Notes under the pieces: model-generated | Seen by the model: only the letters and a program-made list of their open reading frames with translations | Databases searched by the model: none | What the model was told of the DNA's origin: nothing | Part shown: one piece after another, positions 454-13,000 of the stretch | Numbering within the stretch: position 1 is the stretch's first letter | How the letters are laid out: the number at the start of each line of letters is the position of its first letter | Position numbers and translations under genes: made by a program | NCBI RefSeq assembly: GCF_013426915.1 | Contig: NZ_AP023179.1 | Location: 2,914,001-2,978,000, forward strand | DNA length: 64,000 bases | Source: Paraburkholderia sp. PGU19 | GTDB lineage: Bacteria > Pseudomonadota > Gammaproteobacteria > Burkholderiales > Burkholderiaceae | Reading direction: 5' to 3'

Positions 454-1485
454 TCAATCGTTGTTGCCCGCGACGATGCCCATCACCGCCATGCGCACCG
501 CGATGCCGAACGTCACCTGATTCAAAATCACCGACTGCGGTCCGTCCGCCACCTGCGAGTCGATTTCGACGCCGCGATTCATCGGGCCCGGATGCATCAC
601 GATCGCATCGGGCTTCGCGAGCGCGAGACGCTCGGGCGTCAGCCCCCAGCTCTTGAAGTACTCCTGCGCCGACGGCAGCAACGCGCCGCTCATCCGCTCG
701 TTCTGCAGACGCAGCATGATGATGACGTCGACGTCCTTCAGCCCTTCGTCGAGGTTGTGGAACACGCGCACGCCCATCTGCTCGAGACCGCCCGGCAGCA
801 GCGTGCGCGGGCCGATCGCGCGCACTTCCGGCACGCCGAGCGTGGTGAGGGCGTGAATGTCGGAGCGCGCAACGCGCGAATGCAGAATGTCGCCGACGAT
901 CGCCACGCGCAGATTCGTAAAATCCTTCTTGTAGTGACGGATCGTGTACATGTCGAGCAGGCCTTGCGTCGGGTGCGCGTGCCGGCCGTCGCCCGCGTTG
1001 ATCACGTGCACGTGCGGCGCGCAATGCTCGGCGATCAGATACGGCGCGCCGCTTGACGCATGGCGCACGACGAACATGTCGGCATGCATCGCCGACAGGT
1101 TGTTGATCGTGTCGAGCAGCGACTCGCCCTTGCTCGTCGACGACGCGTTGATGTTCAGATTGATCACATCCGCTGACAGCCGTTTCGCGGCGATCTCGAA
1201 CGTGGTGCGCGTGCGCGTCGAGTTTTCGAAGAACAGGTTGAACACCGATTTGCCGCGCAACAGCGGCACCTTCTTCACCTCGCGGTCGGTCACGCTGACG
1301 AACTGCTCGGCCGTGTCGAGAATGTGATTGACGATCGCGCGCGGCAAGCCTTCGATCGTCAGCAGATGCTTCAGCTCGCCGTTCTTCGTGAGCTGCGGAT
1401 TGCCCTTCAGGAAACCGTAGCGAAAACGGTCCGCTGACGCGGCGTTGTCGGAGGAGCCTTGCGAAACTTGATTGGGCGTGTTCAT
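454..1485 (-). CDS. pyrB: Aspartate carbamoyltransferase catalytic subunit
   Basis: 343 residues, the usual length for the long (class A) bacterial form. It joins carbamoyl phosphate and aspartate to carbamoyl aspartate, the first committed pyrimidine step in the cytoplasm. The carbamoyl-phosphate loop [13 protein letters not shown] is at residues 85-97. The [10 protein letters not shown] motif (about residues 166-175) and the C-terminal [10 protein letters not shown] are also present. It lies between pyrR/iscB upstream and pyrC' downstream. The start ATG at 1485 is only about 17 bases beyond the imperfect hairpin that ends the IscB element, and I see only a weak ribosome site (GAGG 16 bases away). 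The insertion has therefore probably replaced the native leader. Confidence 0.97.
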
Positions 1486-1501
1486 CCGGTTGCGTAGGAA
1501 A

Positions 1502-1521
1502 CCTCGGCAATCATGCCGGGG
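1502..1521 (-). repeat. Imperfect palindrome, probable right end of the IscB (IS200/IS605-type) element
   Basis: Two 8-base arms (1502-1509 and 1514-1521) pair with one mismatch around a 4-base loop, and the iscB stop codon lies in the loop. Followed on the minus strand by GTTTCCTACGCA, this resembles the right-end hairpins of IS200/IS605-group elements, which are typically CCCCGGC-loop-GCCGGGG followed by a T-rich stretch. The exact cleavage site is not defined from sequence alone. Confidence 0.6.
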
Positions 1522-2878
1522 AGGGACAGCACGACGCGCGATACGCGCCTTGCTGTTGTGCCGGTCCCTGATCCTTTCCTCTTTTTAGTGGCACGGTAGC
1601 ATATGCATAGCCATCTGCCCGTTGCATCATCGTGCAATGACGGTGTGCTATGCCCTGTACGACGCCTTGAGGCGTCTGGATGTTGAAGTTCCCTTTCGCA
1701 CGGACGGCGACGCGGCCGACATGCGTTCCGGCCTTCTTACCGGTGAGAACCGTGGCCCGGACACGGTCACCGGTCTGGAAACCGTGGATGCGCTTCTGGC
1801 GGGTCAGGTAACCACGCGGAAAACCATATGCCGTCAAACGTGTACGCTGGTAACTACCGCGACCGCTGCACTTGAGCTCCAGCGTCGGTCGTTGCCAGCC
1901 GAATATCGCATGGACTGTTCCGACGCACGCGGCGTCAAGTGCGTGCGTCTTCGGAAGCCCAAGGCGCGTACGATTCCACTTTGTCCGTCCGCCGCTACCG
2001 ATCTCGACATTCAGGTCCGTGGTCCTCAGCGCATTTAGTAACACCCAGCGCGTAGCGTTGACAGCGGCTGCGTCCCGCAACGGTGTCTTTGCTCTCGCTA
2101 AAATGCGTGCGAGCCGTGCCTTGTCCTTGACGAATCCGCGCACATCGCGTCCGCCCTTTTTGAGGTTGCACGGCCCGCATCCCAGCGTCAGGTTCGATAC
2201 ACGATTCGAGCCGCCACGCGCCTTCGCCAGCACGTGCTCGATTTGCAGCGGCACATCCTGGGCATCGCAGTAAGCACACCGTCTCCCCCATTTCTCAAGC
2301 AGATATTCCCGCACTTCGTAACCAAAGAGTGCGCCTTGCTGGTACTCAACGCCGGCAATATCCTGGCTTTGCAACGCCTGCATGTCGAAACGCACCAGTT
2401 CCATCGATATCGCCGAAACGGCCGCCCATCGAAGGACGCGCCTGACCCACGACATCGTGGTTTCGACGCGGTGCCGCAGACTCGGAGCGAGCCACCCTGT
2501 CTGGCGCGCCCGGTTATAAAACCGCGGTGCACGGTAGCGCAGATTCGCGCCGCGACGCCGATGCCGAAACCTCCTTCGCTGCATCAACGCTTCACTGATC
2601 TGCCGGCCACGATGAACTAGCTCGAACAGATTGAGGACTCCAACGGTAGTGTCTGCTTTATCAAGCACAAGAGCCAATCCGGTGGTTTTGCTGCCTGGGT
2701 CGAGTTTCAACCGCAACAGCTGGAACTCACTGTCTTCTGTCAATCGATCCGTCAGTCGAATGACGAACGGCACTACCTTGTGCACGCGTGCGCGACCGCG
2801 GGCAAGCAACAACCTCGCGCGTTTCTCTGAGCACGGCATCAGCGGCATCCCCCGCCTGTCCCAAACAAATACGCTCAA
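1511..2878 (-). CDS. iscB: IscB RNA-guided endonuclease (RRXRR/HNH family)
   Basis: 455 residues, a typical IscB length; this family is the ancestor of Cas9. The start is the TTG at 2878, with AAAAGGAA 8 bases upstream, giving the standard N-terminus ending in the PLMP domain ([15 protein letters not shown], residues 11-25). RuvC-I is [14 protein letters not shown] with D60. An arginine-rich bridge helix is at about 99-122. RuvC-II is ISMEL with E160. The HNH domain has C201/C204, H215, N229 and C234/C237. RuvC-III is LPKTHALD with H312 and D315. All catalytic residues are present, so the protein should be an active nickase/nuclease pair. It needs the omega RNA encoded just upstream on the same strand. 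No TnpA transposase is nearby, so it is probably mobilised in trans. Confidence 0.95.
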
Positions 2879-2884
2879 TCTGAA

Positions 2885-3190
2885 ATTCCTTTTCTGCCCT
2901 TACGGGCCTTGTGACGGAAGCCTTGCGGCTTCGCTCCCCTCGCCAATGTTGTGCGGCAGCACATCCTTACGGCCCGTTTCGTGCATACCCAAAGCGTGTC
3001 TGCGACCGTAGGTTACAGAGCTTGGAACTGAGGAAGCATCCCAAGGTGTGTCTTTAACTTCCGAACAACGTAGCTGCTATGCAGCTTAGGCTGGTCAATC
3101 AGGCTTCAGCGGCAGGCCTCGCCCTTTAGAGCGGGGTGATTGACGGTAATCCTGAATCAGACTTGGAACTGCGAGTGATGCGGGGTAGCT
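2885..3190 (-). ncRNA. Candidate IscB omega RNA (scaffold; guide at the upstream end)
   Basis: The 388 bases between pyrR and iscB contain no gene but many nested inverted repeats, as expected for the IscB omega RNA, which precedes iscB and carries its guide at the 5' end. Visible stems: 3094-3101 with 3137-3144 (GTCAATCA/TGATTGAC, wrapping an inner G/C-rich hairpin), 3072-3084 (GCTGC-TAT-GCAGC), 2951-2962 (GTGC-GGCA-GCAC), 2917-2932 (GAAGCC-TTGC-GGCTTC), and a long-range stem 2902-2908 with 2971-2977. The sequence CTTGGAACTG occurs twice (3021-3030, 3162-3171). The guide should lie at or beyond about 3190, towards pyrR. Its exact edge cannot be fixed here. Confidence 0.72.
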
Positions 3191-3266
3191 GCCTCTTACA
3201 CTAGCGTCGGATGCTTGCACATTGTCTCGCCAATGTGTTGCTCTTCGTGATGCCGGAGCGCCGCAA

Positions 3267-3779
3267 TCAATTTCCGCTCAGCTCCGTATGAAACGTGAAA
3301 CGATGGCCGTCGCGCGACAGCACGAGCGTCGAATTCGTCGGCACCTCGGTCGTGCCGCCGACAAAGCGCGCCGCAATCGGCAACTCACGCCCGCCGCGAT
3401 CGGCAAGTACCGCGAGTTCGACCGACGCGGGACGCCCGTAGTCGTACAATTCGTTCAGCGCGGCGCGCACAGTGCGGCCCGTGTACAGCACGTCGTCGAC
3501 GAGCACGATGCGGCGGTTGTCGACTTCGAACGGCAACGAGGTCGGGCTGGCTTGCGTGTGCAAGCCTTTCTTCGCGTAGTCGTCGCGATGCAGCGCGACA
3601 TTGACGACGCCGAAGGTCTGCACGTTCAGGTCTTTGGCGAGACGCTCGGCCAGCCACGCGCCGCCGCTGTAGATGCCGGCGAGCACCGCGCCGTCCGGAC
3701 CGCCCAGCGCGTCGCCGTAAGCGGCGCGAATCTGTTCGAGCAAGGCGCGATAGAGCGCCTCGGCGTCAATGGAACTCAT
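3267..3779 (-). CDS. pyrR: Bifunctional pyr operon regulator / uracil phosphoribosyltransferase
   Basis: About 170 residues. A type I phosphoribosyltransferase fold is shown by the PRPP loop [17 protein letters not shown] (about residues 97-113) and the [20 protein letters not shown] segment. The start is [10 protein letters not shown] at 3779, which overlaps the ruvX stop by 14 bases; a longer upstream reading of the frame lacks family similarity. PyrR senses UMP/PRPP and controls pyr genes in many bacteria. In beta-proteobacteria it sits, as here, between ruvX and pyrB. The normal pyrR-pyrB junction is interrupted by the IscB element 68 bases downstream of the stop. Confidence 0.95.
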
Positions 3780-12584: not shown

Positions 12585-13000
12585 GTCGAGTTCTCCGGCT
12601 TACTCGCCGCTCCTTTCCGTTCAGGCCTTCAGGCATAACCACCGCCCTACTATGCCTTCTGCTGACTCCTGCGCGGTGGTCAACGGCCCTTGCGGGCCGC
12701 TCAGTCCTGATTCCAGGACGCCGCGCAGGCCTCCCGAGGTAAGCCCAACCGCCTTCACCACACACCTGCCAGATCTACCACCCCAGCCCTTGATGGTCGT
12801 GGACTTCGCGATCAATGGCTCGCTCGTCCGACTGGGTAGGCCTCGTATCTGGTTTCTGTTCGTCAGGTCGTGGCTTTGCTACACGCTTCCTTCAGACCCC
12901 GCCTCACGACGACGCCCTTGCGTTTCACTAGCCCTTCACCACCATCAGGTTGGGCAGGGGACTCTCACCCCCAAGCTGTTGGGCATGCTCGGCACACCAT

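Follow-up and report, generated by a model that had tools for sequence, protein, structure and literature searches.

What is a complete RNA-guided nuclease system doing inside the pyrimidine operon of Paraburkholderia sp. PGU19, and what keeps it there? The window analysed here, a stretch of 64,000 nucleotides from this genome (G000), carries an IscB and its omega RNA between pyrR and pyrB. The initial annotation had described a complete system in the orientation of the operon, a description that protein and HEARO matches and the flanking genes bear out. Read along the minus strand, pyrR is followed by the spacer, the omega RNA, iscB and finally pyrB, all in one orientation, with the following features:

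454..1485, minus strand: pyrB, aspartate carbamoyltransferase, intact
1482..1485, minus strand: ATGA, the pyrB start codon plus one base, at the place of the target-adjacent motif
1486..3144, minus strand: whole IscB element, 1659 bp, delimited by its junctions against relatives' empty sites; left end common to elements with differing host flanks
1502..1521, minus strand: right-end hairpin CCCCGGCATGATTGCCGAGG, found by eye; a similar right-end motif occurs in other elements
1511..2878, minus strand: iscB, 455 aa, starting with TTG and retaining the RuvC and HNH residues
2928..3144, minus strand: omega RNA scaffold, HEARO RF02033, full-length model match
3145..3164, minus strand: guide position, host sequence AAGTCTGATTCAGGATTACC, the pyrB Shine-Dalgarno region, placed by comparing junction and empty site
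3145..3266, minus strand: native pyrR-pyrB spacer, host DNA outside the element, compared with relatives' spacers
3267..3776, minus strand: pyrR, intact

The limits of the element emerge from reading occupied against empty junctions. In an empty relative the sequence runs ...CCCAGTCTGATTCAGGAACACC / ATGAAC, with the pyrB start at the slash; in the window the left junction reads ...TCCAAGTCTGATTCAGGATTACC / GTCAATCACC, the element reading down from 3144, and the right junction reads ...ACGCAACCGG / ATGAACACG, the element ending at 1486. This sets the element at 1486-3144. Position 1 of the HEARO model falls exactly on its left end, GTCAA... left ends recur among elements with different flanks, and comparison with empty sites reveals no target duplication at the junctions. 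It sits exactly between the pyrB Shine-Dalgarno sequence and the pyrB start codon, and the window's iscB stops 25 nt before pyrB without stop/start overlap. Thus, the span first assigned to the system, 1511..3266, needs redrawing: the element proper lies at 1486-3144, and 3145-3266 is host spacer, the last 20 nt of which are the guide position. The left hairpin appears in the centroid fold, and the right one was recognised by eye. Transcription of the element together with the operon, which would then supply the omega RNA, is plausible; no sigma-70-like promoter or minus-strand terminator pattern was found at 1400-3400, which is weak evidence. Elsewhere in the window, at 12624-12913 (minus strand), pieces of a group II intron (RF01998, RF02001) reach the gathering score.

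The protein has the hallmarks of its family. The frame matches NCBIfam NF040563, 'RNA-guided endonuclease IscB', at 421 bits (cut-off 175), has Pfam RRXRR and HNH matches and finds IscB chains in a PDB search. All the RuvC and HNH catalytic residues had been said to be kept, and the residues that we take to fill these roles are indeed present: RuvC-I D60, RuvC-II E160, HNH H215 and N238, and RuvC-III H312 and D315. A RuvC domain split by HNH, with intact D/E/H/D, is found in 111 of the 117 IscB loci described below, the window copy included. The PLMP motif occupies residues 12-15, the protein aligns with its relatives over its full length, and its C-terminal part is presumably, by analogy, a TAM-interacting domain. 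Across pairs, iscB dN/dS is 0.10-0.25 in 13 of 14 and 0.39 in one, indicating purifying selection on the protein. Four loci (L156, L168, L175 and L180) show RuvC changes (D60H; E160M with or without D60T/A) with HNH otherwise intact; E160M in this set may be an alignment effect. The idea that the PGU19 genome (11.2 Mb) holds several IscB copies was rejected, as it yields a single IscB and a single HEARO match (E 0.001).

The covariance search that the initial annotation had proposed placed HEARO RF02033 at 2928-3144(-), directly upstream of iscB on the same strand, with 107.4 bits (gathering 83) over model positions 1-211 of 211. The omega RNA call rests on this covariance model because the free-energy fold of guide plus scaffold was no better than that of shuffled sequence (z +1.36; 186 of 200 shuffles equalled or surpassed it). 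The guide of an IscB is its 5' flank, 16-20 nt long. Judged from sequence only, the guide here lies in the 5' flank, and in the empty site ATGA stands 3' of the target. When the PGU19 genome was searched for 16 nt of guide followed by ATGA (a 20-letter pattern), no match with up to two mismatches appeared besides the element's own junction, where GTCA occupies the place beside the guide at which ATGA would stand.

The site is usually empty. Among 144 genus genomes searched by coordinates, 137 bear pyrR and seven of these have an IscB between pyrR and pyrB; two more carry one directly before pyrR, a further pyrB-site IscB occurs in another genus (G176, L082), and one copy precedes what we take to be pyrC (L092), an amidohydrolase by Pfam. 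The junction was read in 114 of the 137, and the pyrB site is uninterrupted in 107, with ATGA in 106. The lack of any empty site in related genomes had been named as grounds for refutation, and these comparisons supplied both the empty site and the exact ends; iscB as a fixed gene of the operon is rejected by the same 107 of 114.

Several IscB lineages have reached this site. On an IscB tree of 52 rows, the eight copies found at pyrB occupy four positions: group A (the window copy and G034), whose closest rows, L079 and L080, stand at other genes; group B (G055, G120, G100 and G077); group C (G014); and group D (G176), a long branch of unsure placement. Counted against labelled rows, with 34 unlabelled rows left out, they require at least four site changes, gains or losses, on the starred branches. 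Nested in group B is a copy that stands at a Mg-chelatase-like ATPase gene (G063, L016; gene named by Pfam), so the element also changes sites, and the same position at the ATPase gene in G073 (L076) is held by a copy from elsewhere in the tree. The hosts are scattered as well. On a pyrR+pyrB tree (FastTree, midpoint root, quoted supports 0.37-0.99), the common ancestor of the group B hosts spans 66 tips, 60 of them without an IscB at pyrB or pyrR, and the nearest relatives of all four hosts lack a pyrB-site IscB. Under the common ancestor of G034 and the window's host, 12 of 15 tips are empty.

Guides and synonymous divergence speak to how the element came to be shared at one site. The group B guides are identical in four species, and the B guide plus ATGA matches the empty pyrB site 20/20 in 21 of 106 genomes and with one mismatch in 13 more; since empty genomes share that sequence, guide identity in the four hosts is partly expected. 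The window guide differs from every empty site read by at least two mismatches in 20 nt, and the guides of groups C and D by at least three and at least six. Comparing iscB dS with that of neighbouring genes by resampling codons, we found it significantly lower in seven of ten same-lineage, same-site pairs, pairs within a group not being independent. The R pair, before pyrR, gives 0.06 for iscB vs 0.32 for pyrB+pyrR, and five B pairs give 0.10/0.27, 0.17/0.38, 0.18/0.33, 0.15/0.34 and 0.15/0.28, all six significant; L014/L066 gives 0.05 vs 0.13 for the downstream gene (P 0.013). The difference is not significant in the sixth B pair (0.24 vs 0.31, P 0.066) or in L067/L069 (0.33 vs 0.43 for the downstream gene, P 0.065). 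In the lower-dS pairs, the element thus looks younger at its site than the split of its hosts, which is what homing would predict. The window pair, A, shows no excess similarity (0.40 vs 0.30 for pyrB+pyrR) and appears compatible with old vertical descent; we read the window copy as probably an older occupant of the same kind.

The pyrimidine-operon setting emphasised at the outset is real, but it proved too narrow a frame, the wider rule being that these elements stand at ATGA start codons. We assembled 117 distinct full-length IscB loci, drawing on genomes of the genus and family and on 80 named genome records, and dropped ten duplicates. A frame-blind anchor on the right-end motif placed 79 of them; the 38 left out include the window, in which the motif differs slightly. 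ATGA lies within 14 nt of the anchor in 73 of the 79, and in 65 of these 73 (58 of 66 without repeated sites) it starts a reading frame 80 or more codons long. For random ATGAs drawn from the window and from the fetched flanks, the corresponding counts are 83 of 359 and 321 of 1167, i.e. 23-28%, and chance was rejected as the explanation of the ATGAs on this comparison. Six of the 79 anchored loci lack ATGA, two of which (L076 and L078) have ATGG at starts that other copies use too. Examples at ATGA starts include pyrB (8 loci), pyrR (2) and the pyrC-like gene (1).

The same loci indicate what the host gene loses. Left ends were located for 104 of the 117, and 94 entered a Shine-Dalgarno test in which a strong site has a duplex energy of -4.5 or lower. 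Strong sites occur at the left junction in 40 of 94 loci, against 6 and 13 of 94 in controls further upstream, 10 of 94 at the right end of the element, and 66 of 359 and 204 of 1167 at random ATGAs. The element therefore parts the host gene from its ribosome-binding site, as a rule bringing no good one of its own. In 43 of the 117 loci the iscB stop overlaps the ATGA, either as its TGA (26 loci) or with the last base of the stop as the A of ATG (17 loci), and a few ATGAs in this set open no long frame; because the choice of right ends here favoured ATGA and long frames, these offsets are a description and not a test. Of 34 downstream frames sampled, two were shorter than 40 codons (misses) and 30 were scanned by Pfam, with a match (E 0.001) in 27, among them ObgE, an LptA/LptD-N protein, a response regulator and a Kdo hydroxylase. 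Other downstream genes look, from their N-terminal sequences, like those of AlaS, ArgS, GlnE and ProC.

Some loci depart from the common layout. At L073 (G060) the iscB frame extends beyond the host start codon into the host gene itself, presumably phosphomannomutase-like (manB) from its N-terminal sequence, and the two share about 30 nt in different frames. L084, L088 and L093, from one related genus, have a common left flank, ACGCAGGTGAG(C/T)TGC(G/T)CG, and lack a clear right end at an ATGA. Several genomes of the family contain IscB or HEARO copies that are broken or incomplete (L071, L096, L097, L102 and L072).

The element carries no transposase, there being no Y1_Tnp match within 1486-3144. 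Its subterminal hairpins and the lack of a target-site duplication are, at the level of sequence, as in IS200/IS605 transposons, and mobilisation in trans is plausible. Y1_Tnp matches occur in all 16 genomes searched, strong (>80 bits) in eight and only weak (22-29 bits) in the other half, which includes the group B hosts G055, G120 and G077. PGU19 has two strong matches, C1:2859576 and C1:3014996, flanking the window IscB at about 55 and 98 kb, and a Y1-bearing IS in G014 (L185) has a right end, CGCGCTATCCTTCC-hairpin-GAGGTTTGACGCGCAA, resembling that of the IscB element. Both PGU19 loci (the one at 3014996 being L186) and L185 hold Y1 transposase genes of IS200/IS605 type, with a divergent stretch that by eye resembles a tnpB start and a right end similar to that of the IscB elements. 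We infer that the first insertion was made by an IS605-type Y1 transposase acting in trans.

Taken together, these observations suggest that the IscB of the window is probably an intact mobile element that carries its own guide, has the translation start as its niche and could home into the same site of relatives. By entering immediately 5' of a start codon that reads ATGA, it would turn the 5' host flank, with its ribosome-binding site, into the guide of the omega RNA, and the start-codon ATGA would be the motif that the nuclease needs beside its target. An occupied chromosome would be immune because the element separates the guide sequence from ATGA; an empty allele, in which the two adjoin, would be cut and repaired from the occupied copy, so that the element could both persist where it stands and home into the corresponding site in related species. 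Its host gene would keep the start codon, lose its Shine-Dalgarno sequence and probably be translated after iscB by termination-reinitiation.

Alternatively, plain transposition into a four-base target (TCAT/ATGA), with selection sparing the harmless insertions at start codons, might produce the pattern and leave the nuclease irrelevant to recurrence. The adjoining ATGA at 73 of 79 anchored elements, the Y1_Tnp matches in every genome searched, the one IS with a similar right end and the occurrence of group B at both pyrB and the ATPase gene all fit such a process. We nonetheless regard it as unlikely, given that four tree places meet at one pyrB nucleotide and two at the ATPase gene, which seems beyond a four-base target, and that similarity confined to iscB between species at one site seems to need more.

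Two further readings dispense with repeated arrival. Under vertical inheritance the pyrB site would have been occupied in an ancestor and precisely vacated many times since; this reading could draw on excision to restore a clean site and on the window pair, where iscB divergence resembles that of the flanks. It would also demand many losses across the host tree, several separate IscB groups stand at the pyrB site, and iscB dS falls below that of the flanks in the R pair and in five of six B pairs; we therefore consider it improbable overall, and for groups B and R it is contradicted. Domestication as a part of the pyr operon, whether as a regulator of pyrB or as a translational coupler, would account for the operon orientation, the intact frame and the purifying selection, but it is hard to reconcile with occupation in only seven of 137 pyrR-bearing genomes of the genus, with copies at unrelated genes and with retained nuclease residues, and we give it almost no credence.

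Extending the homing interpretation from the window to its relatives, we lean towards the view that the IscBs of this HEARO group are a class of homing elements, RNA-guided and specialised for translation starts. They would have the start codon ATGA as target motif and the ribosome-binding site of the gene as guide; in many members the host start codon would double as the iscB stop, so that insertion before essential genes could be tolerated; and conserved gene starts would serve as homing sites across species.

A separate set of loci hints at another use of the same machinery. Two nuclease-dead IscB homologues, L074 and L075, lie on small replicons, the intervals being L074 (G122:C3:14964-16525), L075 (3529-5080) and L295 (8736-10287); L075 is on G026:C4, the plasmid pII of Paraburkholderia dioscoreae Msb3, whose record names the gene 'RNA-guided endonuclease IscB'. 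In L074 and L075 the RuvC-I aspartate has become E and the HNH histidine P, the HEARO RNA is kept (101 and 102 bits), and dN/dS is 0.14. Six more proteins (P0001-P0004, P0006 and P0008, the record of P0004 lacking its first 13 residues) combine the D-to-E change with loss of the HNH histidine among the 120 of 3566 matches listed. Rfam ncS54 (Burkholderia sRNA 54) lies upstream of the omega RNA in both (L075 3297-3371, L074 5168-5242), as do two group II intron matches in L075.

Both of these loci stand just upstream of a flagellin gene, the annotated start of which, in the P. dioscoreae record, lies further in. The 14 nt adjoining the scaffold, TGAGGCGGCCAGCA, followed by ATGA, are present in both genomes before the fliC of the chromosome, immediately behind a promoter that by eye is sigma-28-like, judged against what we take to be the sigma-28 consensus. 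The flagellin gene beside the dead IscB has two mismatches in this 14-nt stretch and GTGA instead of ATGA. At up to three mismatches the guide pattern finds 15 and 20 places in the two genomes; the weaker matches are partly background, as a reversed pattern also gives 7 and 3. The fliC matches have one mismatch over the 19-letter pattern, which only the guide's own locus equals. This layout mirrors that of TldRs, TnpB-derived repressors of flagellin (PMC13418256), a paper in the text of which the word IscB is absent. Our literature search found no paper treating TldR and IscB together. From its layout, the dead clade may be the IscB counterpart of TldR, and RNA-guided gene control seems to have been invented independently here.

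The window element belongs to the known IscB family, the ancestor type of Cas9. It shares the protein family, the omega RNA family and the 5'-flank guide of the IscB/HEARO elements reportedly described by Weinberg in 2009 and Altae-Tran in 2021, the former of whom is said to have remarked on ATGA/GTGA sites. AwaIscB has ATGA as its target motif, and the Allochromatium warmingii locus in our set (L122), which we take to be its source, ends at an ATGA opening a 340-codon frame. Homing endonucleases and group I introns likewise spread site-specifically into empty alleles at conserved sites and protect their own. The IscB element resembles them in this spread and self-protection and differs in that it owes its specificity to an RNA guide taken over from the flanking DNA and in that the host gene keeps its start codon, whereas with group I introns the host gene is restored by splicing.

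TnpB carries its guide at the other end of the element than IscB does. In the TnpB gene drive of IS200/IS605, the insertion site is likewise reported to be recorded in the guide, with the nuclease cutting element-free copies (PMC11870625); that system was shown with TnpB on plasmids, and ours concerns IscB on a chromosome and evolutionary evidence alone. IsrB, an IscB relative, is unlike it a nickase, with motifs NTGA, NTG and NTGG, and insertion sites are not discussed in the portion of that paper available (PMC9581776); those motifs would also fit start codons. Neither the start-codon niche and Shine-Dalgarno loss nor the stop/start overlap and same-site spread were met in the literature searched, a scope outside which the primary IscB/HEARO papers lay, or in the available portions of PMC9581776, PMC9755519 and PMC13180657. 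As far as these searches reach, then, the start-codon niche and the sequence signs of same-site spread between species appear to be new.

These results suggest a natural role for IscB: to hold and spread its element at conserved gene starts. Occupied and empty genomes together reveal guide, target and motif, which makes each step of the proposed cycle directly testable, and the model predicts where such elements should occur, including in front of essential genes.
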